Positions 5,606 to 41,526 of a DNA stretch of 43,767 nt are shown one piece after another; position 1 is the first letter of the stretch, and every line of letters starts with the position of its first letter. The notes under the pieces were generated by a model that was not told where the DNA came from, did no database searches, and saw only the letters and a program-made list of their open reading frames with translations. Origin of the DNA: Heterotrichella gracilis (lineage: Eukaryota > Sar > Xanthophyceae > Tribonematales > Xanthonemataceae); the NCBI GenBank assembly GCA_032358255.1, contig JAULBX010026774.1, forward strand, positions 1 through 43,767. Direction: 5' to 3'. The position numbers and the translations under genes are program-made.

Positions 5606-6277
5606 CTAGCCAAAACGATTGCCGATCGAATTGATCGCAGCGGTTGCCGCATCTGCTATTGTACTGTCTGCTGAATTTATTGCAGAGCGGACTTGGGCCA
5701 TGTCCAGCACTTGGATGTCGAAGGGCCTTACCCCTTGCCCGGACAGTGAAGCATCAAGAGTGGTGAGTGCATTCCTGATGAAATCTGCGCCAGAGCGTCA
5801 GAAGGGGGGTGAATATCCCTGATTAAGGGTTTGTGTGGCCCCGTCAGATGTAGGGTGCCATTGTCTGCTTGGTCAGTAAAATGTTCCTGGCATTTAACTT
5901 GATCTACATTCAATGCCAAGGTTTGTAAGGGCAACCAGTGTGAAATGGACATTTCTTGTCTCCAATGGCAGCTGGCAGCTGGCATGGTTTTAACAGCAAA
6001 TAACCTCCCTTTCCTAGTAAGCTCCACACCCACCTGACACTGTCGCCATTGCCCCAGTATAAACGCCCACAGCAGCAGCCCTTGGCCCCGGAGGCAGGTT
6101 GGAAATGATGATCGCCCCCTTGTTGTAATACTATTCGTCGTTGAAGTTTGACACCACATCAGCCAACGACTGCTGGCAGGCCTTGCACAGCCCGTCTTGT
6201 GAGAGACCTGTCATCGCCAGCTGGTCATGGATATGGCTATTGGCCGTGTTCACGGTATCATCTGCCAGACCCTGCAG

Positions 6278-6300
6278 TAGGGTTTAGGGTTAGGGTTTTT
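6278..6300. repeat. short interstitial TTTAGGG tract
   Basis: TAGGGTTTAGGGTTAGGG-like sequence just upstream of the acceptor of gene A exon 3. Similar tracts occur near 8128, 8262, 12595, 15664 (reverse), 19465, 27005 (reverse) and 30441. Confidence 0.8.
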
Positions 6301-6493
6301 TCTTGCTGTCTATTGGGAGGATAGCAGCAGCATTGAAAGGTTCACAATCCTGATCTGGTCTGGCAAGCCCGGGCGTAAACTTGTGTGCGCACTGGTCTGC
6401 AGGTATGCATTCTGTGCTCTATGTGAGCCGTCCAGGGGCACACAAAGCAACGAGTCAATGACGGCTGGGAATGCATATTATTTGCTGGGTAAT

Positions 6494-6565
6494 ATAGCAC
6501 CCAGCATTCTACTGTTAACTAACTAACTAACTAACTATAGCACCCAGCATTCTACTGTTAACTAA
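6494..6565. repeat. 29-bp direct repeat around a (CTAA)n tract
   Basis: ATAGCACCCAGCATTCTACT plus GTTAACTAA occurs at 6494-6522 and again at 6537-6565. The copies are separated by CTAACTAACTAA. It lies in the intron between the second and third recognisable exons of gene A. Confidence 0.9.
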
Positions 6566-7838
6566 TTAATTGGAAGTCACCGTCAGGTATTGCATGGCAT
6601 GAGGCAGGAGATGCACCCACTAAAACCCTAACTTAACCTAGGCCCCCACCTTCAGGGATGACGCGGTATCAGCTGGGCAACCTGCAAGAGCCTGCGGTCC
6701 CCACTGCCAGGCTCTGTTATGGTGCTGGACATATCTGGGACCCTAGCCCTCTGCTTGGCTGTCTTGGGATCCCCGGTGAGGAAGGCGCAGGTGTGGTAGT
6801 AGAAGGAGCGGGCCAGGTACTGGTGCCACAGGTCTGAAGGCGAGGTGCGGGAGGTGGCGTTGGCTGCCCAATGGGTGGCGGGGAAGGGGACATCCTCAAA
6901 ATCAACCTGCAGGGGGAGGAAGGCATGTTATCACGTGTACCATGCCCACCTGGTGCAGTGAGATGCAGTGTGCCAACGCCAGCTGGACTCCTACTGTGAG
7001 AGCCTTGTGCGGCAAGGTATAGCACCCCTGGTGAGATTCAGGAAGGTTCAAATAACAACGCGGGTACCCCTTGGGCAATGGCATTGTGAATGCACATGCG
7101 CAGCTGCGTGCAGAATTGGCAACGCTGGTGCCGCAACACCATCATGGGTTTGCCAAAACTGCGTTGCCACTGGCCTGCACTGTAGCGCCATGTAGGCTAG
7201 CTAACTCAGTAGCAGTTTGGCAATAAGCAGCTCAAATTTCATTGAGCCCTGTATTGCATTGATGCCATCATGACTAAATAGAGCACTCTTTTACGAAAAG
7301 TGAACACCATGATTTCACTGCATCTCATGCTTGTTTGCAACTCCATGGTAAGGCTTGCATTGAAAGATTGCCAATCTCACCTCGCATGAAAGGAACATGA
7401 GGGGGTGGTCACCCCCCAGCGGACCCACAGCATCTTCAATCCAACTCAGGCGTCTCCCTGTGCCGCCACCACCACCAGTGGGACCCTCAGCAGGGGTTGG
7501 CGCCCCAGCAGTGAGACCCTGGGACGTTGTTGGGGCTGCTGCAGGAGTTGCCAACTGATCCAGCACTGCTGGTCGGGTGAGTGTCACGTACTGGGGAGCA
7601 GGGCACACTTTGCCGCATGCCTGGAAGGTGACCTGAGCCACTGCTGGGGAGGTGGAAAGCAGCAGCACCGCCACAAGCGGCAGGAGGAAGAAGGGTGGTG
7701 CACGAGACATCGTTCTTTGGGGGTGACCAAGCGGAATTAGCTCAAGACGGGGTGTCTACAAGTTGCAAGAGATGTGCATGCAAGGTGCACCAGATGTGCG
7801 CATTGCCTGTGCGTAAGCGTCGATAGTGGTTGGCTGAG

Positions 7839-8045
7839 GTGTACAAGTTTGGTGTTGGCAGGCCAAAGTTGCTGTATTCTACGCGCTGCAACTCTTGTTT
7901 AGCACAACAATCTTGCGGGAACGCTGGTGCACGGTGCCGTTGCGACACTGAATCGGGCAGGTAGTCAAATAGCAAAGCACATCATTTCGGACAAGAAATC
8001 CACAGGAGATCGGAAAACTTCTTGAGTGAGGGCAGTACAGCCAAC
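7839..8045 (-). promoter_or_regulatory. upstream block of gene A shared with B and C
   Basis: About 130-335 bases before the gene A ATG. GTGTACAAGTTTGGTGTTGG (7839) corresponds to 12242 (B) and 17235 (C). AGCAAAGCACATCATTTCGG (7970) corresponds to 12377 (B) and, in shorter form, 17350 (C). GAGGGCAGTACAGCCAAC (8028) has counterparts near 12467 and 17394. The order is the same in all three. Either the duplication included the promoter or the block is retained for regulation. I see no clear TATA box for A. Confidence 0.55.
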
Positions 8046-8601
8046 TATGCAGCTAAAAGGCCCGAATGCATGCACCTTCACAAGAGCGTTTGAGCACAAA
8101 AGGCGGGAAGCAAACGTGGGATGTTCAGGTTTAGGGTTTAGGGTTTACAGCTGCAGCTTAGGTCTTTTCCTGTTATGTGGCGGATGGCACACAAGATGTT
8201 CTAGGGTTTCATGGCCAACAACTGGTGGTAGCATAATTGCATGGGCTTGGCGCAGTCAAAGGGTTTAGGGTTGCATATGCGCCCGGCGCCCACAAGAACT
8301 CCTGTTATTTGGCAATGAAAATCTGCCACTCTGAGAGCGGGAATGCATGGATTTTTTCCTAGGGTTGACAATTTAGGGTTTTTCCTACTGTTCCGACCCT
8401 ACATAGCTAGCTGGAAAGCAGTGGGTCAGTCCAGGCAGGATGTGCGCACATGTGCGCATGTCGAGACTCCTAGACGAGTTGAGGGTTTTGGACCCTAAGG
8501 GTGACAATTGAATCAACTGTTTTCCCCAATTGATTTACTGCTTTTCAATTTGCCCTGGTTGTACGGTTCCATCTCATGTGGCCATTATGATGGCTGGGCC
8601 A

Positions 8602-8618
8602 TGTGTGTGTGTGTGTGC
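8602..8618. repeat. (TG)n microsatellite
   Basis: Uninterrupted TG dinucleotide run between genes A and B, in a TG-rich neighbourhood. Confidence 0.9.
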
Positions 8619-9062
8619 GAATGATCCATTTAATCTAATTTAGTTGTTGAGGAAATTTGTGTGCGCTGTTTGGGTGAAGGGCAATGCATGTGTGATTGTT
8701 CAGGGTTGTAGATGTGGGACCCATGTGGCAATGCGTGGGGCACATGCGGGTGCATGTATGGTAGTGCATGAACACATGTAGGCGCATGCAGCTGTAAAAA
8801 TGCGTGAACGCATGGGGGTATCCAGCAAAAATGGTTGCCAACATCCAGATGGTTGAGAACATGCATGCTCATTAAAAGTAGTTTTTAGTCAGTAGTTACT
8901 TGTCAGCAGCATCAAAGCGCACCAATTGGAACCCACAGCTAAGTATTGATCCTTTATTGCATGGCTACCTTGCATTAGCCGCCTGGGACAAGTGAGCTAG
9001 TAATAAAATGCAGGTCCTACTAGTTACAAGCATTTCAGTGCAAAGTGGTGGCCATTGGTCAG

Positions 9063-9067
9063 TTACA
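9063..9067 (-). terminator. candidate TGTAA poly(A) signal for gene B
   Basis: TTACA on the plus strand, so TGTAA on the minus strand, about 495 bases past the stop of B. Another candidate is at 9023-9027. Assigned by position and motif only. Confidence 0.3.
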
Positions 9068-9561
9068 TGCGTGCCAGCAGCACAGCAGGTAGCAGCCAAG
9101 CCACATGCTGCGCTTCCACATAAGACTTGCCCAAGGCTGCGCTAGGGTTGCAAATCCTGAATACCAAACCATGATCCAGGCAGCCACTGCACTGTACAAA
9201 ACAGGGCACGCCGGGCATAAACTGGTTTGGTAAGAAAAGAAAAGAAGGCAAACAGCAACGGCGTGAATATTGCATAACAACTATGCTTCACCCTCGTGAA
9301 GCCTTCCTTGGAGGGGGAAATGCGGTGGTAGAAGGTCTAGTGGCGCCAGAGGGGACCGTGGAGTGGTGCGGAAGGGGACAAAAATGAGAGGGTGGAGTGG
9401 CAAAAGGGGGAACAGGGGAATTGATGTCAATTATCCGATACAGGTGCACGGATGTGTGGATACCGACACAATGTGTATAATACAATTCCTGCCCCAGTGC
9501 CAACTTGCAAAGTGCCATCACACCAGAGTGGTCTCTTGTCTCGGCTGCCCAGTGCTTTAAA

Positions 9562-12128
9562 CTAGCCAAAAATGCCGGCAATCGACTTGAGTGCTTTTTC
9601 TGCCTCACCGTTGACGGGGGCTTCTGCTTCTTTCAGTGCCTGGGCTACTTTGTCCAGCATCTGGGCATTGCCAAAAACGTGGTAATGGGAGTCAGTATAG
9701 TGGGATTTATCAGTCAAATGATCATGTGGCTGTTGTTTATGTGCTATACTCATTTTTTGGGGTCAGCCATCAGGGTCAGCCAGTACCTAGGTCTAGGTTC
9801 CTGGCAGGAGAGGCACACCAACACTCTTGAGACTCAAGTGCACATGCCACAAGATCAATGATTATGGAAGAGAACAAACTGGATGAATGCCTTCCATCTA
9901 CCAGGTCCACTAGAACGCGGTAAGGGTTTTAGATTATAACCATTATGTCCTCTTCCAGAATCAATTACTGTTCATTTACTCATTATATTATATTTATTTT
10001 GTAGCTACTTTGTGCCTCTGATGCTGGTACACTATCCAGAGCAGCATCCATCCCCTGTACAACACCCTCCGCCTCCGCCCCTTTCCATCTTGCCACTGAC
10101 CTGGGTCTCCACGGCATTCAGGACCTTGCTCAATGCATCATCAACGGCACTGATTGCGTCAAGCATGAAGCCTGTGACAGGGAGGACACCTGGGGATTGC
10201 TCTTGGATCAAGGTCTACGTGGCTCATCAGATCTTGACAGCAATTGTACAAATTGTGTGCTTGGTCAGCACTGCCAAGACACCCTGTGAAATTCTGACAC
10301 CTGGCGCCCATGATGGTACATCCCCAGGACGGGTGAGGCTAGGCTAATCACTTAGCCCCCATGTGAGTTTGGGGTGCCTTAACCCCTCCCTCACTCTGCC
10401 TACATCTAGGTCTTGACCCTCAAAATTAAACACTTAATAAGGTGCCGCTCCAAGCAAGGGTCTGGAATGTGCACGTGACACTGCAGACTTGGCCCAAGGC
10501 TAGGCAGGGCCGCGCACACACTTTGTGTTTTCTTTTGGCACAGAGCCGCAGGAGGACTATGGTGACACAATTTTTGCGCATGTGCAGTAATAATACCAGC
10601 ATTAGATGGACATATCATCTTGTTTGACAAACCTACACGAGCGAACGTGCAAGCTACTACCATCTGATGAAGTCATTTTGTCAGAGGAAAAGACCAAATC
10701 TCAGCTTCCTGGCAAGATCAGCCACACCCACCTTCCACTGTCCTCATTGCATCAAAAAACACATCCCCTGCAGAAGTCTGTGCCGATGGAGACACCTTGT
10801 CAATGATCTCTCCCACCTTGCCGGTGGCCTCGAAGTAGGCTGTGAAAGCACGAACCCCCAGGCTATTGCAGGCAGAGCACAGATGCTGTGCTCCATCGCT
10901 AGTCAAGCCGTTGGGACCAGTGTCCTGTGCTTGAGCTAGGATGAAGGGTATGAGGTTGGTGATGTTGCCTACGGCTTGGTTCACTGCGGCAATTGTCAGG
11001 CCCTGCACATGAGGGAGCAGCAGCAGCAGTATTGCAAGCTTTGCACCCTGAAGTGTGTGATTTCTTCCGGCAAAGTTGCAGGCCTGGCAATGTTAGGGTA
11101 ACCCAAGTTGCAATTATTTTCAAGAGATTGCGTAAGATTTCTAATGTGGTCCATCCACCATGCTTCTCAAACCTAGTCCTGAACCCTCACCTGCAGGTTT
11201 ACCTGGGCATCAGCTGAGACCCCGACTCGAGTATGGAAGGGGGTAGAATTCAAAAGCTTGCGAATCGCATCCCCACCGCCAAATGTGGCCAATGCTGGGA
11301 TCCTGGCCCTGTGCTTTGCTGTCTTACGATCTACGGTGAGGAAGGAGCAGGTGTGGTAGTAGAAGGAGCGGGCCAGATACTGGTGCCATACGTCTGAGGG
11401 GGAGGTGCGGGAGGTGGCATTGGCTGCCCAGTGGGTGACGAGGAACGGCGCGTCCTCAAAGTCAACCTGCAGGGGGGAGGAGGTGTGTCAAAAAGGTCAC
11501 CAGGCTGGCATGCGCACTGCCGAGGTGAGTGTGGCAATTCTATTTGAGCTCCTGGTGTAGGAGCAAGGGGTAGCACCACAGGTGAGAGTCTCTGACATCT
11601 TCACTAGCCCTTGTGTAATGGCATTGTGAATGCACATGCGCAACTGCATGCGCATTGGGAACGGAATTATGGGGTATGCCAAAAGTGCATTGTCACTGGC
11701 CTGCACTGTGGCCTGCACTGTGGCCGCCAGTAATGTTAACTAGCTGTAGTAGCTTGGGAATAAGCAGATCAATTGAGAGCCCTGTATGGCATGCAATCAT
11801 GATAAGAAGTAGGAATTTTTGTGAGAAAGTGCACACCATCATTCCCTGCATCTCCTGCTTGTATGCAGCTTCAGGCAAGGCTTGGAATTTATACCTCGCA
11901 TGAAAGAAAGTTGAGGGGATGGCCACCCCCCAGTGGACCCACAGCATCCTCAATCCAACTCAGGCGTCGGCCTGTGCCGCCACCGCCGCCAGTGGGAGAT
12001 TGGGGAGCGGGGCACACTTTACCGCATGGAAAGGTGATCTGAGGTACAAACTGAGCCACCGCTGGGGAGGTGGCAAGCAGCAGCATCGCCGCAAGCGGCA
12101 AGAGAATGGAGGGTGGTGCACGAGACAT
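9562..12128 (-). CDS. secreted LCxxC-family protein B (unknown function)
   Basis: Five exons with matching phases: 12128-11895, 11466-11191, 11002-10732, 10171-10101, 9660-9562 (stop TAG), predicting 316 residues. I do not recognise the family. Visible order: signal peptide (LLPLAAMLLLATSPAVAQ, residues ~9-26); CGKVCP; a short Gly linker; TGRRLSWIEDAVG and FLSCE at the end of exon 1; HWAANATSR (N-glycosylation sequon) and SFYYHTC in exon 2; AQAQDTGPNGL and LCSAC (Cys 212 and 215) in exon 3; amphipathic helices in exons 4-5, ending IAGIFG. The start is chosen because it opens the signal peptide and aligns with A. It probably enters the secretory pathway and is extracellular or wall-associated. 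It is intact and lies between pseudogene A and intact C. The two last exons have the same lengths as in C (71 and 99 bases). Confidence 0.85.
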
Positions 12129-12211
12129 CGCTCCAAGGGCTTAACTGTAAACGGCAAGGCTCAGGACGGTGTCGACAAGTTTGCAAGTGATGTGCACTGC
12201 CTGTGCGTAAG

Positions 12212-12480
12212 CTTATAGGAGCTGTCGACAATTGGGCTGGGGTGTACAAGTTAAGCGTTGGCAAGCAAAAATTGCTCTCTTCTACGCGAGGATGCAACTC
12301 TTTTCCAGAACAACAGTCTTGCGAGAACGCTAGTGCACGGTGCTGCTGCGACGCTGAATCGGGCAGGAAGTCAAAAAGAAAAGCACATCATTTCGGACAT
12401 GAATCTACAGGAGATCGGAAACTTTCCTCGAATCTACAGGAAGTCGAAAACTTTCTGTGACGGCAATGAGGGCAGTCCAG
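12212..12480 (-). promoter_or_regulatory. upstream region of gene B with TATAAG and shared blocks
   Basis: A minus-strand TATAAG lies at 12217-12212, 84 bases before the ATG. Beyond it come the three blocks shared with A: GTGTACAAGTTAAGCGTTGG at 12242, AGCACATCATTTCGGACA near 12380, and GAGGGCAGTCCAGCCAAG near 12467. Inside it, a short unit (ATCTACAGGAGATCGGAAAC / ATCTACAGGAAGTCGAAAAC) is repeated at ~12403 and ~12431. Which segment is the core promoter cannot be settled from sequence. Confidence 0.5.
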
Positions 12481-13502
12481 CCAAGTAGTGCAGCCGAAAT
12501 GGATGGCATATGCATGCATGCAGAAATTGATAGCACGTTCACAGGGCGTTCAAGCACAGGATGCAAGAACCGTTCAGAATGTAGGGCTTAGAGCTTAGGG
12601 TTTAGAACTCAACCCTAAGGGTTTACCCTAGGGATGGCCTGTGGGAAGGGCTTGGCTGGAGTCCCTCATTCCCCCCACCCCCCATCCTACACCTTGGTTG
12701 CATTAGACTCCCCTTCACCCCCACACACCCAACCACCCACTCCTGAGAAAGTCCATCCCACACCCCATGTATCCACACCCACACCCGCAACAGCCAACAA
12801 CCAACGGCCTGTGGGGCATTGTGCAAATGGGCATGGCCATATGCAACGCCTGGACCCAGTGGGCAGGTAGTTCATTTTTGTAGTTCATTTTTGAACACAA
12901 TTTCATTTGAAATTTTTGCCCTTCTGGTGCTGGATACATACTGGGCACTTAGTGCACACGCATCGCAGGTCATTTTGAATCTGTAAATGGAACATGATTA
13001 TCATTGAAGGCAGATTATCAGGTGGGTATGCAACAGTCGCGCACTCGACGGGTTTGTATAATTTGCCCATTGCATGCATCAGATGAATCCTCAAAGTGTG
13101 CACGATATGCATCTTGGCGGGGATGATATTGGCTATTAGTTACAATGGTTGACAAGCGCTGAAGCTCTTGAACTGGTATGGCACATACTGTACCCACACA
13201 CTAACCTGGCTGTAAACCTGCGCCAGGCGGAAAATTCCATACAGAACTGGAAAACATAACTACAGAATGTACGCTAGGGTGCTGTATGCTCCCTCGCTAG
13301 TGAGTTGCAATGCTGTTTGAAACTAGACATCACGCGTGGGCAAAGGCACATTTTGTTTGAAACTCTGATATAATCAGCGCTGGCAAGCCTTGCAAGGCAG
13401 GCAATCACCATATTCACTACATGGTACATGACTGGACACTGTTGTATGCCACGCAAATACTGGCTTGATACCTACGCAAACATGGTACATACGCACACCC
13501 GG

Positions 13503-13507
13503 TTACA
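13503..13507 (-). terminator. candidate TGTAA poly(A) signal for gene C
   Basis: TTACA on the plus strand, giving TGTAA on the minus strand 242 bases past the stop of gene C. The distance is reasonable; the motif is short. Confidence 0.4.
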
Positions 13508-13748
13508 CAACTGTCTTGCAGTCCTCTAGTCATGGCGAGTACAGTGTGGCAGTTGCTTGCACCAAATCAGTAATTTTTGTAACATTTCATCATCACATGC
13601 ATAATGTCACCCTCACACGTTGCTCTTTGCTACTTGCTGTGCCAAAACGAGCATCCATTTGCTAACAGTCTGCACCACTGCCAAAACTTGAAAAATGTCA
13701 TCATATCATCGTGATCATGTGTATCAAAACTCTTGCCGGTGCTTCAAC

Positions 13749-16700
13749 CTAGCCGAAGAGGCCTCCAATTGAACCGAGTACGCTTTGTGCCCCATTGAGG
13801 ACAAAGTTCTTTGCATCATTCAGTACCGTTTCCACTTGATTCAGTATCTGGACACACACGTGGGGAGGGGAGTCAGCAGGTGGTCTTGGGATAGCAGACA
13901 GACCGCGCGGCTGTTAGTTCTGTGCAAATTTCATGTTTTAAGATGCCAGCCATCAGGGTCAACCAGTACCTTTGGCACACAAACCCATGTAAAGTGCACA
14001 CGCCACGACACTAATGGTAGAGGACATACTGGACAGGATCCTAGAGGATAATGCCTCCTTTGACAGACAGCGTGCAAAATTCTGTTTCCAAAGTAATGCA
14101 CATGTTCAATCTGGCAAGCACAGGCTGCATGGTTTGTTTATTTATTTCTTTCTATTTTAGCCAACACAAATTTTGAGCAGCATTTTACCCCCACCAGACA
14201 CCCGCCTCCGCCCCCTTCTTTCTAACCTGTTTTGCCACGTAGTCCAGGACCTTGGTCAATGCATCACCAAAAGCATTGATAGCATCTTTGATGAAGCCTG
14301 TGACAGGGGGGCAGTTCACATGGTAAGGGTATCCTTGAATCAGGGTTTACAAGGCCCATTAAATCCTTACTATAGCAGCAGTCGTGGCTTGGTTAGCACT
14401 CTCAAAATATCTGTGGTAATTCAACATCTGGCACCTAGGCCAGGATGACACATCCGCAGGCAGAGTGAGGGGGGGTCTGGCCTGGCTAATCACGCACCCT
14501 ACACCCATGCAGGGGCTGCACAACCATCCTTTTCTCTCCCTCACTCTGTCTCGTTACCAACCAACGCAACCCCAAGCAAAGACATGGATATGCACCTTTC
14601 ACAGCACTTCCAACTACACAGTGCACCCAAGATATTGCAAAGATTACGGCAGCCCCCACACTAAGTCAGCCCTGGCTGTGCTGCACTGGGCCAGAACCTC
14701 CCATCACTTGAACATTTGACACTAAGCTGCACTTTCTGCACATTAACAGGAAAGATTACATCAGCTTTTGAATTGATCATTGGCAGTGCATGATGGACAA
14801 AGTTACAAGAGCAAAACATGCAAGCTACTGCCACCTGATGACATGAGGAAACACGCAAAACAACGCTCAGCTTCCCAGCAGGCTCAGCCACACCCACCTG
14901 ACACTCCCCCCATTGCGCCACCAAAGGCACCCGCTGCAGCACTCTGTGCAGCAGGTGAAGGTATCTTGGCAATGACGGCTGCCCCCTTGCCGAAGCCGTC
15001 ATTGTAGGCACTTGCAGCATCAGTCACCGACTTGACGCAGGCATCGCACAGCTTCTTTGCTGCATCAACGCTCAAGCCCCTGGGACCAGTGTCCTGGGCT
15101 TGTGCTTTGATGACTTCGATCTGGCCAGTGACGTTGTCCTTGACGTGGCCCACAGTATCAGCTGCCAGGCCCTGCATATGCGATAGAACCAGCAGCATTA
15201 TCGTAAGCTTTGCGACCTGATAGTTTTTCATTAAGTGAAAAACCCCCAAGTGTATGTTCGTGCCCCATTAGTCAGCACTGACGCTTGCAACGCGGATGCA
15301 GTAACATGTGCATTGCATTGCATGGTTATCGATTTGACGCAACCTGTTGAGCTCAAGGCTCAGCCCTGAAAGCGCACTAGGCTATCATTAGATCCTGCTA
15401 GGGACCCGTGGTAGCAGTAATCCTTTTTTAGCCTAGTAGTGCGTTACCTTGCTTTGACTTTTATGCCACTGCTACCACAAGGCCCTTGGACCAAACATTT
15501 TTGCAAACTTGGAATAGTTGACACCTATACAGGCTGTGAAAGGCCAAATGTGTTTGGGCTGATTCAAAACTGCTAGGACACAAGTAACTCACCTTTAAGA
15601 AAGAACTTGCATGGAACTGATAAGAATATTGGGGAATTCCTAAAGTGCTGCATCCACAGGCACCCCTAAACCCTAGTCCTAAACCCTCACCTGCAGGGTT
15701 TGAGAGTCACCAGGTTGTACTCCTGCTTGGGCAAGCTGAGGGGCAACCTGCAGGAGCTTGCGGTCCCAAGTATTACCAAATGTGGGCAACGCTGGGATCT
15801 TGGACCTCTGCTTGGCTGTCTCAGCATCCCCGGTGAGGAAGGCGCAGGTGTGGTAGTAGAAGGAGCGGGCCAGGTACTGGTGCCAGAGGTCCGAGGGGGA
15901 GGTGCGGGAGGTGGCGTTGGCTGCCCAGTGGGTGGCGGGGAAGGGGACGTCCTCAAAGTCATCCTGCGGGGGGGAGGAGGCATGTCACAAAGGTCACCAG
16001 ACTGGCATGCACATCCGCCAGTCAATATGGCGCACTGCCAGGGCATGGTGCGGGGATCATGGACAGGAAGGGAATGCCCTCATCATCGCCTGTGGTTGCC
16101 CCTAAAACCATCATTGCAACTTGTCTGAAAGGTTGACATTGTACTCACACTGAGTCACTGTACATGGCATGAGACCGCCTGCACAGTGGTTTCTATATTC
16201 TAACATTTTCACACACGATAGGATGCTTGGTACAGCGTGGACAGTGGCCCATTGAATGTGGCATGGCATCCAAACCCCTGTGCCAAGGATCACATGGCAT
16301 GTAGGGGGCATTGACTGCTCACTGGAAACCCACATCGCCTAATGCATGGAGCATCTTCAAGAAGCAAGTTGCATGGCCTGCAGCTTGGCTAGGTACGCAT
16401 TGCATGGCAGGTTGCCTTGACCAGTCAAGGACATGAAGGTCATGGCTCAGTGGAGCTCAGGGTTGCATGCAGATCTAAGCAGGTTTGACAAGGCGCAAGG
16501 CTTCAAGATCAGGAGGCACGAGGTGATGTGCTTACCTGGCACGAAAGGAACATGAAGGGATGGTCAGGCTCCAGCTGCCCCACTTTCTCTACAACCCAAG
16601 TCAGGCGTCGCCCTGTGCTGCCCATGGGAGTCTCGGCTGGCGGTGCAGCTGCGGTTGGCGCTGCCGCAGTGGTTGGAGCAGCAGCCTGCTGGGTACCCTG

Positions 16701-17011
16701 CATGGTGGCAGTAAGGGCGCCTGAATGGTTTTTCCTGCTGTTCAGTTCCAGACAAGCTGCAGGTAGCAGGTGGGGCAGCTCAAGGAGGGAACCACACAAG
16801 TACTTACCCCTGGTCCCAGCCCAATCAGGGCCAAGTTGGTGAGCAACGTTGTAAACTCTGCCGGCTGAACCAGTGCCAATGTAGTGGGTTGCACCCCTGC
16901 CTGAGGGCAGACGCTGCCGCATGCAGGCACGCTGAACTGAGCAACCGCTGGTGAGAGTGCAACGAGCACCACCGCCACGAGGGGCAGGAGAACGTAGCGT
17001 GAAGGAGACAT
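13749..17011 (-). CDS. secreted LCxxC-family protein C (unknown function)
   Basis: Six exons: 17011-16808, 16697-16536, 15963-15691, 15171-14898, 14297-14227, 13847-13749 (stop TAG). All phases agree and 360 residues result. Order: signal peptide (LLPLVAVVLVALSPAVAQ); ACGSVCP; a Pro/Ala/Thr-rich linker of the kind often O-glycosylated in algal wall proteins; STGRRLTWVVEKVG and FLSCQ; DDFEDVPF, HWAANATSR (from residue ~134) and SFYYHTC; DRKLLQVAPQL; AQAQDTGPRGL and LCDAC (Cys 255, 258); an Ala/Gly-rich segment; and C-terminal amphipathic helices ending GSIGGLFG. Exon 1 of A and B is split in two here by an intron within the linker. Intact and the longest of the tandem copies. Transcribed away from D, from a shared 1.2-kb spacer. 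Function unknown; secretion is the only firm inference. Confidence 0.87.
15372..15478. repeat. two interleaved inverted repeats in an intron of gene C
   Basis: CGCACTAGGCTA (from ~15373) pairs with TAGCCTAGTAGTGCG (from ~15429, a 3-base insertion). GTGGTAGCAGT (15408-15418) pairs exactly with ACTGCTACCAC (15468-15478). The arms alternate, a pseudoknot-like arrangement rather than a simple hairpin. Located in the intron between exons 3 and 4 of gene C. Confidence 0.6.
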
Positions 17012-17116
17012 GGTGGACGAGTAGCTAGCTCAAGGACTGGCTAATGCTGTGCAGGTGTCTACTTGATTTGCAGTGACTGTGCCTTGCGGGTATACCCGTT
17101 CTGCTTGCAATGGCAG

Positions 17117-17162
17117 TGGATGGACTGGACTGGTTGCGCGAAGATGGACTGGACTGGACTGG
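17117..17162. repeat. TGGAC tandem repeat upstream of gene C
   Basis: GGATGGACTGGACTGGT, then after a short break GATGGACTGGACTGGACTGG. A 5-base unit repeated about seven times in two blocks, roughly 105-150 bases before the gene C start, probably in its 5' UTR. Confidence 0.85.
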
Positions 17163-17234
17163 TCGCCCTTGCAAAGAGCCTTTCAAATCCAGCAGTGGCA
17201 CAGAGGTGTGATGCAGTCGAGTGTCAACAGTGGG

Positions 17235-17410
17235 TGTGCAAGTTTGGCGTTGACAGTGGCGCCTGCTCTATTTATAGGCAAAGGATTGCAGCTTTTTCAC
17301 AGCACACAAATGTCGACAGGGTGCTGGGGAGAACCGGTCAGGAATTCGAACAGCAAAGCACATCAACTTGCCAGCAAAGCACGCCAGCCCGAGAGGGCAG
17401 TACGCCAACT
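17235..17410 (-). promoter_or_regulatory. gene C promoter region with TATA box
   Basis: A minus-strand TATAAATA lies at 17276-17269, 258 bases before the ATG. About 15-40 bases downstream of it is the block GTGTGCAAGTTTGGCGTTGA (17235, plus-strand view), also present upstream of A and B; this would place the transcription start near it. Further upstream, AGCAAAGCACATC (17350) and GAGGGCAGTACGCCAAC (17394) are likewise shared. Confidence 0.6.
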
Positions 17411-18174
17411 GTCGCGGCCCAAAAAAGCAAACCGCTTCCAAAGCTGTGCAAACAGGAATGCAATCTGGAAGTTGGCCCCGCTGGTGGGCGGTAGATGCAC
17501 TCTGCTGACAAGGGCGTTGCCAGCGTGCTGCATGCACCTCAATCAGGCACTACAGGGGTTGCCTGCTGCAGTACTGGGAGTTTACCAAAAATCTCAAACA
17601 TTTTGGAGACACTACACGGGGGGCTGTGTGCATCGCTGCTGGCAAGACGCACAGGATGGAAATACGACCCAAATGTTTGCGCGCATTGCGCGCATTTTTC
17701 CTAGGCCCCTCTAGGCTAGGTAGAATTGCCAACCTCTTCAATTAAAATGCAGCGGATGCACATGCATCTGAAGCTGACGCTGTTCCAACATGCAAAGACT
17801 CGTGCACCATGCACTGCCTGGTCACATGACAATCAAGTGGGGTGGCACCGATTACCCATGTGCCCGTGAATTGTCAGCAATGGTCTCGCTTTCAAACCCA
17901 GGTTGCTGGATGATAGATTCGAGGATCTCCCCACAAGTTGTCACCTTGTTTGAACATGCTTCCGAAGCTTCTGAGTCCTGATACCACCGCCCCTTGGGTG
18001 TTTCACTGAGGGACACTTGCAGCCTGAGAAGGGGTACTCCCAAACCCACCCTCACGCCTAGGCGAGCCTTTCACACTGCTCAACAGTTTGCGTTCATGTG
18101 GTCACAGCCCTGATCCCAGGACGTTTCTCAGCAAGTTTGCTGCACCCACCTGTGAACAGGCTCCGGGAGCCAAC

Positions 18175-20397
18175 ATGGCTCATCAAATCAAGCTCCAAAT
18201 GCTGTTCCTGGCACTTCTGTACACAGCCATTCCCTTTGGGTTGCACCTGGTGCTGGCTCAGGGGCCTGTGCCTCAGACGCCTGTGCCTCAGACTGCCCCC
18301 CCATCCATTCCTGAAGTGGAAGTTGTGTGTGCAAGTGTGTGCAGCAACATCACCATTGGGGATAACAGCACTAGTGGGGGCAACAGCACTGGTGGCGGCA
18401 ACAGCACCGGTGGGGGCAGTGCCACTGGTCGCCACCTGCTGCTCTGGGAGGTCTCCATTGATAAGCTGGGAGGTAACACCCTGCATCCAAGTTGTCTTGT
18501 TTCAGGTGGAATCAGGTGGAACTTATCATGCTCTTGATGTTTTCCTTTGATCCCCCTTCATAATGTGTGGAGGCTGAGCAGAAGGACCGACTAGTAGAGC
18601 TGCATTTGTGACTTCAAATGCTGTGTACAATTTGTGATATATAAAGTCCATGCATAGGCTATTAAAGCAATGTGCTGGGCAGCATTGTATTCTGGCAATA
18701 GCATGCAGACCTCTGAACTCAATTATTCTGTCCCGGGGAAACACACTGTATTGCAAACCTGTGCCCGGCGCGGGCGGCCCTGGCTGTCGAGTTGCCATTC
18801 ATGCTAGGCGTGCAAGGAAAATGAGGGTACAGCAGCAATGTATACCAACCTAGCTGAGCAGTCCACAATTGAGACACACTGGCAGCCCTCGGCTTGTTGT
18901 TTTTTCCTCACGCACTCATTTCCAACTACCCTGGTTTCCAAGACAAATGCGTATGGTGAATTACGCAGTGTTGAGTATTAACAGTCACTGTGAGTCCAGT
19001 GCTCATTCTTTTTTGTTGCTGCAGATGGATCCTCAGGCCACTTCAGCAGCGCAGGTGTTTTGGCAAATCCATCAGTGGGCCCCGAACATGCCTCCCGCAA
19101 GCTGCTGCAGGCGCCATCTCCACCAGCTGTACGTCAGGATATTGCAACGGATCTGCAGGTATGCCTATTGGTGGTAAAGTGTGGTTTTGACTGCTGGCAT
19201 GATTGTGGTTTGACTTGATTGGCATTGTGATAAAAATATGCATTTTGCCCAAGACTGTTGGAAACAGCAACAGCACCCCGCTGAGCGCCTCATGAATAAA
19301 CTTAAAAATTATAGGAATTGGGAATGTGTTACATACAGTATGTATGTGAGCAGGTACTGCGGTGACAATTCTGTATTGCGTGCCTGAACCTGGTGGCCTT
19401 TACTAGGGGCAGAACGACACTGACAATTTCAATGTGCCTAGTTAGGTGGAATTTCTACAGGCTTAGGGTTTAGTAACACGTTTCTAGGGTTTAGTAACTT
19501 CTGTGCCAGCCTTGTCTTCAAGAGCAAGTTGCAGGAAGGTGCATATGGTAGGGGGAATAATGGACAGGAGGGCAATGGATTCTCTTCCCTGAACACCAAT
19601 GCGCCTGGTCAAGGACAGGCTGTATAGTTTATTTTGAAAGGAAGGAATTCCATACTTTTGCAGGTGGGTGCGCGCAACACCGTGAACAACATCAAGGCCC
19701 TGTTTGATACCGAGCTCCAGTTGCTGGTGAACAAGGACCTGCTGACAAACGACTCCAAGGCAATACTGTGCGCAAGCTGCCAAGAACTGGTGAGTGAAGC
19801 GCATTGTGGCAGCTCGTGTGTTTGCCCCAGCAAGGCAGGAGAGATCTGTGATAGCCTCCAATGCAGTGGTCGGCGCCAATGCCATCTGCAGGCGGGAGGG
19901 GCAGGGGTCATACCACTACTTAACCTGCGTCAGGTGCTGTTGATTATCTCCTGAAAAGAGTGTGCTGTATCTTGATCCAGGTGGCTAAGGTAGAGCAGGA
20001 GTTTAACGACCAGTACAACAAAAGCAAGACAGCAATTGACAAGTTACCCGCGGACGAACAGCAGCCTGCAAAAGTCTTGTTGGATGACAGCATGGGCAAC
20101 AAAGTAGTGCAGTTCATGGACGCTGCACTGACCGAGGTCGGGGACTCGCTCAAGCAAGCTTCTGATAAGATTGCACAGCAGTTTTCACAAGGAGAGGTTG
20201 TGGCCGTTTTCAACAGCGCCAAGTCAGTCGTGGATAGCGCAGCTTCCTCTGCGGTGAACGATATCAAGGACCCTGCGGCAGGGTTTTTCAACGACGCAGG
20301 GGTGTGGATCACGGGTGCGGCGGGCACAGTTGCAGGCGGTTTTCAAACCGCAGGCGACACTATAGCGCATGGCTTCTGCAGTGTGTTTGGGTGTTAG
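18175..20397 (+). CDS. divergent secreted LCxxC-family protein D (unknown function)
   Basis: Four exons: 18175-18505, 19025-19158, 19664-19789, 19981-20397, phases consistent, 335 residues. Start chosen at the Met opening a signal peptide (MLFLALLYTAIPFGLHLVLAQ); an in-frame Met at 18088 would bury it. Order: PQTP repeats; VVCASVC; four N-glycosylation sequons in a Gly/Ser/Thr repeat (DNSTSGGNSTGGGNSTGGG); TGRHLLLWEVSIDKLGG (matching TGRRLSWIEDAVGPLGG of A/B); a short segment ending SRKLLQAPSPP (cf. DRKLLQVAPQL in C); LCASC (Cys 191, 194) followed by QEFNDQYNKSKTAIDKLPA (cf. SAYNDGFGKGAAVIAKIPS in C); then a longer amphipathic C-terminus ending in CSVFGC. It lacks the HWAANATSR/SFYYHTC segment. 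Membership in the family is inferred from the order of motifs and matching intron phases, not overall identity. Confidence 0.8.
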
Positions 20398-21961: not shown

Positions 21962-24398
21962 CTATTGCCTGTGGAAGTAGGCAAGCAGGCGATTGCCGAG
22001 CCCGGGCCTGGCCATTCGCATGGGGGAGCCACCACAGCTACTTGCAGGGGCACCACCACCACCACCCAGCGTGTGCATCCCGCCCCCCGCCCCCCCTTCC
22101 ACCGCCTCCAAGTGCACCACCGGGCTGTGCCCAGGCGATGGTAGCCCTGACAGTTGCTGCGGTGCGTGTGGGGGGGCCGTGGGCGCTAAGGCTAGCCCTG
22201 TGTCGGTGAAAGCTCTGATCTCGTGTGACCCCCGACGCGCTTGCCCCTGCTGGGAGTGGCGCGACGCCTTGACTGGCTGCGGTGATGGGTCCAACCCCTC
22301 ACCCTCAACCTTGGCCAGCTGCGGTGGGGGCTCCAGCCTCTCCCCACCCACCATTGTGTGCTGCACCACCCAGGGGTGTGCCAGCAGCTGCTGTGCGGTG
22401 GGGCGCTGGCAGGGGTCGCGGCGCAGGCACGCGGTGACATAATCGCGCCACAGCGGGTTGCACACCCTAGGGAAGGGTATGGTCTGGGTGAACACCACGG
22501 TCTCCTTGGTGTCGGCATTGACCAGCACCGCAAAGGGCGGCCGCCCCACCACCAGCTCGAAGGCGAGCACGCCCATGGACCACACGTCAATCTGCACAAG
22601 CGCGGCACTGTTAGGGTTGTAAGTTGAGAGTAGCTTCCTACATCACTTTGTTTACATTCACAATCGCTAACACTGATAGTGATGATCATTTATTCAATTT
22701 GGTTCTTTGTATTTTGTACAAAAAAATAAAAGTCTATTTATATTCAAATTTTCAACCACCCCACTTAGTCAGCACAAACGCGCCATGATTCAGGGCAATG
22801 ATAGTAGCAATGATGGTAGCATAATTGATGCTGCTTTTACTTTGCCAGGACACCCTAGACCACACACCCTCCTCACCTTTTCGTCATACGCCTGTATCCC
22901 CCGCCCCGCCAGCAGCGCGCAGTCCATCTGGTCCACCTCCCGCTCCACCAGGTCAGAGATCGTGTTGGCAAGCACCTCGGGCGCCATGTAGTCCAGCGTG
23001 CCTGACCGGTTGAACGCCACGTGGCGGCTGCACTGTATGGCCAGGCCAAAGTCGCCGAGCTTGACGGCGCCCGGGGCGGATAGGAAGATGTTTTCGGGCT
23101 TGATGTCCCTGGGGGTGTGGGTGGGAGGAGGTGGAGTGGGTGGTGGAAGTGCAGGGCAGTGGGTGGAGTGATGGGGTGGGTGGGTGGGGCCACGAGATGG
23201 AGGGTGGCGTGCAGCAGGTGGGGTGTTGTGGCGCAGGAAAGCAGGGGTTGCAGCAGCCATTGGGAGGCGCAGAGGTTTGCAGGGGGTGGGTATGGGGTTG
23301 GTGTGGCGTGTGAGCTGCTGCACCGTGGTGGGCAGATGGGATACCACCATGTGCATGTGGTGTGCGCACCAGGGGCAGAATGGGTGGTGGGACACTGTCT
23401 GGGGCGACCAGCTGTACGTGGAGGCGAAACCAGCTGGCAAGGTGGGACCAGTGCAGGGCTAGCGTCGTGGGGTAGTGCTAATGGTGGGCTGAAGCGACGG
23501 GGCCAGAACATACCTGTGGATGACATGCTGACTGTGTAACCCAACGAGGACTCGCAGGATGGGGGCTATCACGACGCTGCACGCCCACCGCTCCTCCACC
23601 TTCCCGCCACAGCGCGCCATCCGTTTGTACAGGTCTCCGCCCTGGATGCCACGCAGCCCTGTCAGCCTGGGGGCGCTGTGCTAGTGCAGGAACATACGCC
23701 AGTGCGTGTGCCCTGCTCAGTGTCTCAACTACCACTGGCCAGCAGTTTCACGGTTGGTGGGTGTGCAATGGCCTCAGAGTTGTAGAATACAATGACCGGG
23801 TACATGATGATTCACTGAAGTTCAGAATCTTGTGTTGGCTCAGAATGACACCTGTTCCCTATACCTGTCCTGTTTCACACCTTACAGTGCTCCAAGACAA
23901 GGTATATGGTGGCGTCATCCTCAAAACTGCCGATAAGGTGCACGATCCCCTCCCCTGCAAACCGCTGCTGCAGCTCTATCCCACGATGGACATTCAGCAG
24001 CGTTCGGGACCTGAGCTTGGCCTTGGTGTACGCCTTCACGACGAGTTTGCAGCCGGTTGTGCGGCAAGTCGCTGTGTACACGGTTGACATACTGCATGGA
24101 GGGGCCCGGAAGCTGCTTGAGCAAGAGTGGTGGCACGGCATGGGGTGGGTGCAGGGTGGGTGCCAGGTTAGTCAGTGAGATGGCGGCAAACTGTGGCAAA
24201 AAAGATGGAAGCTTTGCAACTGCACTGCCTACTATGAGGTTAGCATGGCGCTGGATCGAGCAAATATGTCTTGTGGGATGCCCAAAAACAGTGCTCACGT
24301 GGAGTCACAACACTCCGAGATCACCACCCACCCAATTCTTACCTGCCCGTGTAAATCTTCGTCTTAGACTTGAACTGCCCGATATCCGTGTACACCAT
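21962..24398 (-). CDS. serine/threonine protein kinase
   Basis: Five exons: 24398-24343, 24091-23881, 23641-23514, 23108-22877, 22591-21962, phases consistent, 418 residues from the Met at 24398. It transfers phosphate from ATP to Ser/Thr; substrate unknown. Kinase landmarks are present in order: a reduced glycine loop (YTGSMSTVY), VVK with catalytic Lys 38, Glu 58, hinge LEHCKGGDLYKRM, HRDIKPEN (Asp 133), DFG at 151-153, SGTLDYMAPE at 167-176, and DVWSMGVLAFELVVGRPPF. Between APE and DVW lies an insert of about 30 residues (ISDLVEREVDQMD...). This layout resembles the large green-algal group of Aurora-like kinases, a resemblance from memory only. The region after residue ~275 is Pro/Gly/His-rich and probably disordered. 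The true start may lie in an upstream exon (see 24954-25072). Confidence 0.9.
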
Positions 24399-25072: not shown

Positions 25073-26088
25073 GTCGTGGCAAAAGGTGTGTACAGGTTAC
25101 GTTACGGTGGCTAGGTTGGTGTTGGTTTAGGTTCACATGCCATGCGGGCAAGGTCTTATTCCCTCAGCAAGAGGTGTGCTTGTGCTGCAACCCCACACGT
25201 CTGGAATACACCCAGTAGACGTATACGTCTACTCGATAGGCGTTTTAAGGCACGGTATCAGTGGGTTTGCAGCACTTTATAAACCTGTTAGCTAACAGCA
25301 AAAAAAGGCCCATTTAAAAGGGACCAAACCTCCAATGCCTGCGAGCACTCGAGATATATATCACGTGCAAAGCCTGGCCACATGTCCGGCCCACATGGAC
25401 TTCAGGGGGCAGTCCCGGAACCACAATGTACGAGTGTGGAATCATCCACCCAGCTAGCAGCTGCTGCCACCATGTTGAGAGCTTGCCCTATTGATGTCAA
25501 CAAGTTTATAAATGGATTTTAGGGAGGCACACAGCGCTCATGGACAGCAAAAACACCCACATGTGCAAACCGCCCTGGTGGGAGGTGCAGGTTCTTGAAA
25601 CACCATATTTGGGGCTTGCAAATGGGCGTTTCATTTAGAGCCAACATCGGTACCTGCCGCCCACTGTGTTTCTTTCTACTGTCATACAGACACCATTGCC
25701 TGAAGAGTAGCAGGTCATTCCATAGTGCATGACAAGGTCACATATTTGCCCTACGAGCCGCTGTGCACAATGGTGGCGGTGTTGCGGTAGGTTCTTGATC
25801 CACCATAGACCTCTGAAGGGTGATAAGTATAACAGTAGATGGGCTACAGAACGCAAGGATAAGGATATTTTATATTTCAGCTCAGCAATTTAGGTGTAAG
25901 CATATTTGCCAAGCATGCCACAGCATAAGGATACGCATAAGGAAAAACACAGGATTAACGATATATATATCCAGGAACATTTATAATGACAAGGGCACTC
26001 AAAAAAACTGGATAGTAGTAAAGGACAGCTCCCAATATTAACCTTAATAGGTCAACTACCAGCATGCACACAAGCGCAACACCAACCC
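25073..26088. other. spacer upstream of the kinase and 3' flank of the membrane-protein gene; no gene seen
   Basis: No spliced or conserved coding frame. From about 25651 rightwards it is the left part of the 3-kb duplicated unit and aligns with 28687 onward: CCGCCCACTGTGT, then GTGCACAATGGTGG, then ATTTGCCAAG and GCATAAGGAT in the same order. Confidence 0.6.
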
Positions 26089-27753
26089 TCATGGCATTGT
26101 CCCACCCGATACAGCAGCAGGCAGCGCCAACACATACTCACACATCCAACCCCAGCTAGCCGAGGCAACCAGCAGAGCTGCCCAGCCCCCTCCAGTCAAC
26201 ATGGCCACCACAGCCAGCAACCTCAGCTCATCCTCCTCCATCTGCATGCGCATCAGCGCCTCGATGCTTGACCGCCACATCACGCTCCCCTTGCTCGCAA
26301 AAGTCATCCAAAGGTGTTCAAGCCAGCCCACCTTGACCAACATTTCGGCTCCCTGGATGCCCCGCAGCCGCAGGAAGGTCATTCGGCTGGACCGCTCCGC
26401 ACACAGCAACAGCACCACCCCCATCAGCTTGCCAACGGTCCACAGAAACCCCCTGGTTACCGCACACTGCTGCACCGTGGTCAGGGTCAGGCTGCACCCG
26501 CTTGGCTGAGACACACCGCACAAAGGCTGCTGCAACGACCAATACGCCGCCTGCATGTCCTTCCCGGCGCACGGGAACTCAATCAATATGGTGGCACACT
26601 GGTCAGTGAAGGTGCCCCGCCAGTTCGCCTCTGTGAAGAAAGGCAGGGAGGACACCGCGCCAAAAAGCGCCACAAAGTGCCAGAAAGACATGCTGGTTGC
26701 TGCTCCCATGAAGGTCCGGAATAGGGGCGTGAATGCATAGAGGGACAGGACGACCTTGCTGCAACTGGTGCCGTTTAGGCGGCCGGTGTGCGCATGGAAG
26801 CGCGTGGCATAGTATGGGAGGGCCGCATGGTGCAGTACCTGGTGGCTGAAATAGGCCCAGTCCCGGGAAAAGGCCCAGGTGTCGGGGCGGTGAACCTGCA
26901 GCAGCAAGAGCAGGGTGGACAGGTCAGCAGTAGTGACGCCACCCCTGGAGGCGGGTGGTGGACAAGGCGGTCGGGCACGATTGCACACAGCGTTTGGGGG
27001 ACAAAGGCCAACCCTAAACCCTAAATCTAAACCTAATTTTGGAACAATGTGGTGGGTGACGACGAGCACGTGGTGCGCAACTTGACGCAGCGACTGGGGT
27101 CAATGGCCAATGCGGTGGCATGCGGCAGTGACTGAGCCTGATTAGTGGTCACATCCTGAATGCACTTTGGGTATCGCAGCACTGATCTCCAAGCACAGGG
27201 TTGACATTGTGCAGCGCAGGTCACACAACATGCAGCAGCCACCCCTCACCTGGAACCACAGCCCCACCGCACTCACGCCCATCAGCCCCACGGCCATCAA
27301 ACCTGCACCCACACGCGCTGCCGGTCACGTGCTGCAACCACACGCGCTGACAGTCAAATGCTGCATCCACACACCATGAATGGACGGCTGGAGCTGTGTG
27401 ACTATCCACTGGGTTAGGGTTTATTCCCTGGAGGTGTTGCTTCAAACAGTAGCCGTGCACACACCCGCCTCACAACCATAGCTCATATGCACACCGGATA
27501 AGTACAAGGAGGGTTTGCGCCACACATCAGGCGCACCTGCAGCCGCCGTGGTGCCAATGTCACTGTTGCTGCGCGCCGCAACCCGCAGCACCAAGCTCGG
27601 GCTTCCGATCCAAAACAGCAGGCCAAAGAGCACCTCCCCCACCCTGGTCGGGATGCTTGCATTGCGGTACAGCAGGTAGTCTGTCTCGAGCTGTGCATCT
27701 CTGAAGGCCAGGGGCTGCACCCGGTGCCACCAGCGCAGGGGTCCACGCACCAT
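26089..27753 (-). CDS. multi-pass membrane protein, tandem copy 1 (unknown function)
   Basis: Three exons: 27753-27537, 27302-27250, 26895-26089 (stop TGA), phases 1 and 0, 358 residues. The start is the Met of MVRGPLRWWHRVQPLAFRD, because similarity to copy 2 runs through it and fades a few codons upstream. I do not recognise the family. Hydrophobic stretches lie at about 35-55 (EVLFGLLFWIGSPSLVL), 73-90 (LMAVGLMGVSAVGLWF, exactly exon 2), 137-177 (probably two, including SFWHFVALFGAVSSLPFF), 237-256 (FLWTVGKLMGVVLLLCA) and 315-349 (two). Together these suggest roughly six or seven membrane passes. Loops contain conserved Cys and a Trp/Tyr/His-rich segment (RDWAYFSHQVLHH). Not a transposon protein. 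Which membrane it sits in is unknown. Confidence 0.75.
27303..27371. repeat. ~30-bp minisatellite in intron of membrane-protein copy 1
   Basis: About two diverged copies of a unit containing CCACACGCGCTG, then GTCA, then TGCTGCAACC, just upstream of exon 2. The matching intron of copy 2 has about three copies. Confidence 0.7.
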
Positions 27754-29167
27754 GCCAACAGGTCGGAGAGTGCGCACGTGCCCAGGAGGTGTCACTGAAT
27801 GTCACTGTGCCTCATGGGAGCCAGGTGAGTGCAAAGGCACAGACACTGGTGTTGCCGGTGGGTTTGCTCCTTGCGCTGAGGTGTCTGGTGCTGGGCTGCA
27901 AAGGGGTGAGGGGACCAGGTTGCGGGCAGTGTCTGTGGCGCCAGTCACCCTGACTTTGACACTGCGGAGTGACGTGGAGCTGGTGGGTGGGGATGGGTAA
28001 AGGGTCTGAGCGTGAGGTGTACGCAGGCGAATCCCTGTGGAAGTGTGGTTGGAAGTGGGGTGGGTGGAACTGTGGGCGGTGTTGACAGGTTACCAGGAAC
28101 TATGAGCATAAACGGAACTGATAACGCACATAAACCGGTAAGCGTGCTTCCACCTCGGCACATCACTTTACCTAAGTCAAAGCGTGGGAGCATAAGACAC
28201 ACTGCCGATAAAAGTCTGCGACATCAAGGTCCGCATGCATGCATGCATTACCTCCAAACCAAACTGGGCTGCGAAAGCCTTTACGTCGAGGATATACTTC
28301 CTTGAACTCGTTTTTCGTTTCACCACCACTCCGAACTAGAAATTGCTGTTGAGGGGAGAAGGGTTGTCGAGGGGCCTACCTTCGGGCTGGCTGGCAAACC
28401 TGGGTCCATTGCGAGGTCTCGTCAAGTTTCAAACGCCTCACGAAGGGATGCACCGTGCAAGGTAGCTGCTGGCTGCGCACGTACTTTGCAAGGTCACTTC
28501 AGGTTCTTGCTGCGTTACGTCTAGCTGCAGCATGGTGTCCGTGTGCACGTGCGCTGTACAGCAAGATACGTTTGCGTCCCTGAACCCTAATAGGGCAGGT
28601 ATGCCAGTTTCACTGGAGCTCACCCCAAGAAAAAAGTAAAAGACAACCCCCACACACGGTGGCACACCATAACTCAACATTGATGCCGCCCACTGTGTGA
28701 AGGCATAAGTGTTTCAGTCTACTGCCATGGAAAATACTGTCATATGAACAAAAAATGCCGTTGGTGTGCATGGACAGGTCACTTCATAGTGCATGAAAAT
28801 GTTATATATTGACCTAGGAGCTGCTGTGCACAATGGTGGTGGTGGTGCCGTGGGTTTTTGATCCACTTATGACATATGAAGAGTGATAAGCATAAAAATA
28901 AATGGCTATAAATCGCTAGGATAAGGATATCTGAGCTCAGAGGTTTAGATATAAGAATATTTGCCAAGTCCAGCCGTGGCATGCTACAGCATAAGGATAA
29001 GCATAAGGATAAGCATAAGAATAAGCATATATCCAGAAACCATAAGGACGAGTATTAACGGGCCCCAAAAAATTAGGATAATAACAAATGACAGGTCCTT
29101 GGAAATAGTAACAATCATATGTCGACCACTAGCAAGCGCTGCCTAGCATACAACCCACCGCCAGCCC
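27754..29167. other. 5' flank of membrane-protein copy 1 and 3' flank of copy 2
   Basis: The first part (to about 28500) is related to 30774-31500 and includes a conserved stretch around 28240-28400 (GCATGCATGC, then AAAGCCTTTACGTCGAGGAT, then GGTTGTCGA), a plausible promoter/5' UTR. From 28687 it repeats the downstream flank of copy 1. No other coding exon seen. Confidence 0.55.
28989..29024. repeat. 12-bp tandem repeat GCATAAGGATAA
   Basis: Three adjacent copies at 28989, 29001 and 29013 (one substitution in the last) in the 3' flank of membrane-protein copy 2. The corresponding place in unit 1 (about 25923) has fewer, diverged copies. Confidence 0.9.
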
Positions 29168-40929: not shown

Positions 40930-41526
40930 CCTCAATCTGATCCGGCCCTGGTGCAGGGCCGAGGGGCCAAAATGGCATCCACAGGAGAGGCTCCAGATTC
41001 GCACATGCGCAGGAAACGCAGGGGTACCATTCGACTTCGCTTAAGCAAGTACCTCACTTGTACTGTTATACATGCAATGGTGCGCCAGTGCTGCAATACA
41101 CGTCGACGTCGTGCGCTGCTACTTGTAGTGCCCGCAAAATTTGCCGTGAGGCTTCCTGCGAAATCAGTATCACTAAGGTATCACAGAGTTGGTATCAAGG
41201 ATTGATTGTTGTAACTACTGGGAGTTTTGCACCCATCAGTATCGCTGGGGGTCCTTCAAGCTGAGAGAAATTGCATGCTTGTCAAGCAAAGCCTGCTGCA
41301 GCAGAATAAACGCTATTTTAAATTATATGTATTTTGCATATATATTTAAATAACAAAACCAAAATACCGTTTGCAAACGATTGCTTCTGATACGCACATA
41401 TATGCACCTGCATCAACAACAAACCAACAAGCCAAGCTAGTCGTTCCACGAAACACAGAGCCCCGCCGCAGCACTCTTCGTTCAGTACACCCTTATTGTT
41501 GGGCGACATATGCATGCATTGTTGCA
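40930..41526. other. CFIm68 3' UTR and spacer before the F-box pair
   Basis: No coding exon seen. Contains the TGTAA at 41210 and an AT-rich patch at 41310-41360 (ATATGTATTTTGCATATATA-like). The patch may belong to the upstream region of the first F-box copy. Confidence 0.6.
41210..41214 (+). terminator. candidate TGTAA poly(A) signal for the CFIm68 gene
   Basis: TGTAA about 280 bases past the stop codon, in the TTGTTGTAACTACTG context. Plausible green-algal poly(A) signal at a typical distance. Confidence 0.5.

Follow-up and report, generated by a model that had tools for sequence, protein, structure and literature searches.

What kind of protein is encoded by four neighbouring loci in which a secretory-type N terminus, paired cysteines and a helical tail recur in the same order, and does it belong to any family already described? 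The loci lie at positions 5606-20397 of the window, the whole stretch of 43,767 nucleotides that was analysed (C426:1-43767, in a genome of 68.5 Mb and 903 contigs). With E limited to 0.001, a search of the genome for chlorophyll a/b-binding proteins gave 43 matches (the positive control responded in Synechococcus only) which, together with the introns, indicate a phototrophic eukaryote. Our analysis confirmed that the secreted-looking protein family at this locus is real. The original prediction had described four loci with a common modular order, one of them a dead copy, and both points held: B, C and D were modelled from sequence alone as spliced genes with open frames and GT..AG introns, and A as their broken counterpart with a stop codon in its LCxxC exon. 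The features of the cluster are as follows.

5606-7710, minus strand: gene A, C-type, broken; exon 1 7381-7710, exon 2 6682-6906 (3' end uncertain), exon 3 6034-6271, fused exons 4 and 5 5606-5784.
9562-12128, minus strand: gene B, C-type, 312 amino acids; exons 11895-12128, 11203-11466, 10732-11002, 10101-10171 and 9562-9660.
13749-17011, minus strand: gene C, C-type, 360 amino acids; exons 16808-17011, 16536-16697, 15691-15963, 14898-15171, 14227-14297 and 13749-13847.
15691-15963, minus strand: exon of C that encodes the larger part of the middle domain conserved in the C type (THWAANATSRTSPSDLWHQYLARSFYYHTCAFLTGD), with counterparts at 11203-11466 (B) and 6682-6906 (A).
14898-15171, minus strand: LCxxC exon of C; counterparts at 10732-11002 (B), 6034-6271 (A) and 19664-19789 plus the start of 19981-20397 (D).
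17012-18174, no strand: C/D intergenic region, 1,163 bases between the diverging genes.
18175-20397, plus strand: gene D, D-type, 324 amino acids, lacking the middle domain; exons 18175-18472, 19025-19158, 19664-19789 and 19981-20397.

The stop codon in A is an in-frame TAG inside exon 3 (6034-6271), which is shorter than the LCxxC exons of B and C, and A has no intron between exons 4 and 5. The introns of B resemble those of C, and exons 4 and 5 are separated by an intron at 9661-10100 in B and 13848-14226 in C, a site that is uninterrupted in A and in two copies elsewhere in the genome, E and F; this intron was either gained in the B/C line or lost in the others. The window contains 13 telomere-type words (TTTAGGG/CCCTAAA), for example near 8130, 12600, 15670 and 19470; some of them lie upstream of A and B, others within introns of C and D.

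Relatives were found on two other contigs, the copy counts being lower bounds, as single-protein genome searches score the best candidates only. A second pair lies at C82:69.6-75.6 kb, where the C-type gene E on the plus strand and the D-type gene D2 on the minus strand diverge, and a degraded C-type relative, F, lies at C203:67.5-69.6 kb, its frame broken in exon 2 and with no recognisable exon 3 within the 15 kb examined. Splice candidates are only weak where exon 2 of E meets exon 3 and where exon 1 of D2 meets exon 2, and both genes may be intact or partly decayed. C and D start head to head across 1,163 bases, and E and D2 across 1,104, an arrangement whose geometry suggests shared regulation within each pair on positional grounds. 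Comparison of the two intergenic regions gave no significant similarity (best E 0.53), the upstream regions of A and B align weakly to that of C (E 2.7e-05 and 1.9e-07), and no duplication beyond the gene pair was detected at E 1e-4, all frames common to 20 kb of C82 falling inside the cluster. In a tree of the cores, D and D2 are sisters at 100/98, consistent with a pairing that predates the separation of the two clusters. The tree sets B, C and E apart from A, D and D2 at 80/85, with B flagged as a long branch; because the broken A groups with D and D2 instead of B, C and E, any history of the types drawn from it is provisional.

Protein features were read from the translations, with signal peptides judged by eye. 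A, B, C and D follow a common order of secretory-type N terminus, CxxVC, linker, GR(R/H)L, dibasic L-L segment, LCxxC and helical tail. The signal-peptide-like N terminus ends in AVAQ in A, B, C and E, TVAQ in F and LVLAQ in D, and is followed by CxxVC in seven of seven copies. The linker is rich in G, P, A or T or, in D, consists of N-S-T-G repeats carrying four N-glycosylation sequons. The C-type middle domain, around FLSC and WHQYLARSFYYHTC, is conserved in A, B and C and missing from D, and an N-A-(S/T) sequon lies within it in all five C-type copies (A, B, C, E and F). The dibasic motif reads RKLLN in B, RKLLQ in C, D, D2 and E, and RRLLQ in A; the turn after LCxxC (KLPADEQ in D, KIPSPAAQ in C, KVSPSAQ in B) has a Q that does not vary, and the helical tail terminates in or near F-G. 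Each of B, C and D contains six cysteines, arranged as pairs. The cores of the D-type and C-type proteins are homologous (hhalign E 2.8e-17).

GR(R/H)L, proposed originally as a motif shared by the loci, is indeed present in the copies (its position reads S-R-L in E), but it is probably no family signature, since R(K/R)LLQ occurs in other frames of the genome that look secreted by eye. The word CGCMRSCTGCTGCAG has 71 genome occurrences, compared with 62 for a permuted word and none for the word read backwards; for the word and the permuted word, respectively, the second place is K or R in 30 and 24 cases and K alone in 12 and 6. Among the 30 of the 71 matches listed as loci, 15 have K, R or H in second position, and about five of these besides D2 look secreted by eye. 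The idea of a dibasic LLQ motif as a genome-wide secretion tag was dropped, given that 71 against 62 is no overall enrichment and that secreted-looking frames were too few. The literature match for RRLLQ with a signal peptide appears to concern Giardia. A tandem pair from a different small secreted-looking family, with RRLLQ and N-C-(S/N)-K-V-C, was observed at C9:121.0-124.4 kb; the latter motif resembles CxxVC of A and B, and the C-terminal half differs.

The absence of a recognised domain was borne out in searches of Pfam, NCBIfam, PDB, viral and prokaryote sequences, the eukaryotic sequence searched being the window's own genome. None of the matches listed reached a curated cut-off in Pfam-A (B, C, D and two exons of A), in NCBIfam (B, C and D) or with pieces of B, C, D, E and D2, and hence no whole-chain profile match to a characterised family was found at cut-off. 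When the five cores (B, C, D, D2 and E) were compared with Pfam, the lowest E value among the 25 of 31 families with values listed belonged to WXG100 (0.00058), followed among others by ApoO (0.0014), Perilipin (0.019) and Senescence (0.075). These families resemble the cores in the helical composition typical of amphipathic or hairpin helical proteins. However, each matches only one of the five cores and the bit scores shown lie below cut-off (16.9 against 27.3 for WXG100 with a piece of E; 16 against 31.4 for apolipoprotein O with a piece of D2), and all four were judged to reflect shared helical composition and rejected as homologues. Searches of PDB with phmmer gave no match for C at E up to 10 and six for D (best E 2.5). 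A core-profile search of PDB gave 19 matches, of which the best four are designed helical proteins (3.1e-06, 0.0096, 0.11 and 0.16), again read by judgement as shared composition, and the best natural chain has an E value of 0.18. Phage tape-measure proteins match the cores with a best E of 1.4e-10, one family being matched by four of the five cores; homology was rejected here on the same judgement. When viral contigs and prokaryote genomes were scanned by pattern for exon 2 of C and exon 4 of D, 12, 197, 9 and 186 pattern matches came up, none confirmed as a relative, and the literature titles and abstracts listed yielded nothing on LCxxC secreted proteins or the present family. As far as these searches reach, the family appears to be without a recognised relative. 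The original interpretation, a putatively lineage-specific and fast-evolving family that would act outside the cell, is supported in part.

The helical tail was examined by its hydrophobic moment. For B, C, D, D2, E and F, the helical-band moment of the last 50 residues is higher than in every one of 500 shuffles and the best angle of periodicity is 96-102 degrees; over any angle the same test gives p <=0.002 for five copies and 0.014 for F; in A the helical-band moment is not above shuffles (p=0.60). Of the C-terminal amphipathic helices first described, one helix in the last 50 residues thus stands for B, C and D, with no such signal in A. Loss of the signal in the broken A is only suggestive of a helix that matters, a contrast weakened because F, also broken, retains it. 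The net charge of the five cores runs from -1 to -9 and so speaks against a cationic peptide active on membranes.

Evolutionary rates differ along the chain. Between B and C, the 158 codons of exons 1-2 have a dN/dS of 0.45 and the 146 codons of exons 3-5 one of 1.15, a significant difference between front and back halves (Fisher p=0.0035), although a comparison of exons 3-5 with exon 2 by itself gives p=0.12. Exon 3 gives 1.42 and 1.54 in two calculations, and an excess over 1 is not significant for exon 3 (p=0.31) or exons 3-5 (p=0.56), so that relaxed constraint fits the back half as well as the fast evolution first proposed. Between C and E, dN/dS is 0.37, 0.32 and 0.35 in exons 1, 2 and 3, and the exon 2 values (dN 0.20, dS 0.61) indicate that amino-acid constraint also acts on the middle domain. 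For B and C, exon 2 as a whole has a dS of 0.43 and exons 3-5 one of 0.41. Within exon 2, dS is 0.22 for the opening 49 codons, which form the centre of the middle domain, and rises to 0.67-0.76 in the windows that follow directly; for A and C, exon 1 has a dS of 0.74 and exon 2 one of 0.26. Given the low dS in those 49 codons, gene conversion may add to the conservation of the middle domain. Relaxed constraint and diversifying selection would each fit the back half of B.

We tentatively favour a reading in which the genes encode secreted, acidic, cysteine-paired amphipathic-helix proteins of two homologous types that work at the cell surface. It is supported by the open frames of B, C and D, the paired cysteines, the homology of the two types, the second pair, the helical-band moment of the tail in six copies, the negative net charge of the cores, the sequons and the low dN/dS values (B with C in exons 1-2, C with E in exons 1, 2 and 3). 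The signal peptide would be removed from the secreted chain to leave an N-terminal CxxVC knot, from which a flexible linker, with N-glycosylation sequons in D, would lead to a C-terminal module that starts at LCxxC and finishes with some 50 residues of amphipathic helix. The middle domain, with its one N-A-(S/T) sequon and two further cysteines, is an insertion found in the C-type proteins (A, B, C, E and F) and lacking in the D-type proteins (D and D2). The cysteine motifs most likely lock the N terminus onto the helical module, and the acidic amphipathic helix probably packs on a hydrophobic surface, in the matrix or on the outside of the cell, which may be a membrane, extracellular lipid or a helix of a partner; it could equally belong to an ordinary soluble bundle. 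Action outside the cell is plausible from the N termini, paired cysteines and N-glycosylation sequons, and the head-to-head arrangement of C with D and of E with D2 suggests that both types are made together and may act together. The sequences themselves show the gene models, the homology, the duplications, the rate pattern and the helical periodicity, whereas secretion, disulfides, surface binding and joint action are what we infer.

Of the alternatives, a possible though rather unlikely one is that these are ordinary species-limited secreted proteins, for instance wall or matrix filler, that have no special mechanism and of which most copies are drifting to loss. The near-neutral back half of B and the decay of A and F fit such a fate, and uncharacterised secreted proteins are common in green algae: in one study, 53 of 103 predicted secreted proteins of a strain of the lichen alga Trebouxia are without assignment, and some fall in orthogroups unique to one strain (PMC12712428). 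The likeness of those proteins to the present family, compared by description only, lies in secretory type and lack of annotation. However, drift sits poorly with the conserved cysteines and sequon, the C vs E ratios of 0.32-0.37 across exons 1 to 3, the occurrence of two-type pairs at two loci and the helical signal in six of seven copies.

It is unlikely, though still worth weighing, that the family consists of diversifying recognition or defence proteins, in which the LCxxC half would be variable and partner-facing, the middle domain constant, and copies gained and lost. The contrast in dN/dS between the halves of B and C points in this direction, as do the broken state of two of the five C-type copies (A and F) and a simulation in which random substitution of the same size left the frame of exons 3-5 open in just 6% of 20,000 trials. 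Against it, neither exon 3 nor exons 3-5 rises significantly above 1 and exon 2 does not differ significantly from exons 3-5, the value of 0.35 for exon 3 of C and E means that relaxation after duplication would explain B too, and the apparent constancy of the middle domain could owe something to gene conversion.

Distant membership of the saposin-like (SapB) lipid-binding proteins, with LCxxC as the first cysteine pair, FCSVFGC of D as the last and helices opening onto lipid, is improbable. Saposin type B has six cysteines forming three disulfides in about 80 residues, and an LCxxC followed by a helix, with a closing cysteine pair as in D, does recall it. SapB_1 (PF05184) aligns to D from the L of LCxxC (E 0.1, 13.1 bits) and to one of the five cores (E 0.12), and the two share the amphipathic helices of the C-terminal module, paired cysteines and a probable secretory route. 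However, D alone scores, its 13.1 bits lying below the cut-off of 25.2 with no SapB match listed for B, C, E or D2, and the number and spacing of cysteines differ: the module has two (B, C, E, D2) or four (D), the middle pair is missing and the closing pair occurs in D only. A genome-wide SapB_1 search returned genes on C316 and C683, none from the present family, and no saposin is among the 19 PDB profile matches; membership was rejected after these searches of whole proteins, cores and genome. The SapB_1 matches at C316:47.4-49.2 kb, two above the Pfam cut-off and one below, are placed outside the family by sequence search.

The most conjectural extension, and the least probable reading considered here, is a two-component extracellular system in which co-made C-type and D-type proteins would assemble through LCxxC-anchored amphipathic helices, the middle domain staying constant and the fast-changing helical half recognising another cell or a microbe.

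The family is unusual in its two-type head-to-head pairing and its contrast between front and back halves; otherwise it is an ordinary orphan secreted family, and the cluster adds one more such family, not a new kind of system. Annotation of green-alga secretomes is poor, and the cluster supplies a defined family with two homologous types and a repeated pairing, whose border between more and less constrained halves, together with naturally broken copies, makes function directly testable.

GC in the window is 47-61% per kb, which does not discriminate for or against the 49.6-51.1% of Trebouxia genomes (PMC11523091). Elsewhere in the window, 25711-28494 and 28775-31501 form a tandem duplication (84% DNA identity in the longest piece) that includes a long minus-strand frame with no Pfam match at E 0.01. 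A smaller direct duplication joins 41521-41819 and 42671-42996, in pieces 89% and 79% identical. At 21965-23455, two or more exons on the minus strand encode a protein kinase domain, and an mTERF-like frame lies on the same strand at 35069-35677.
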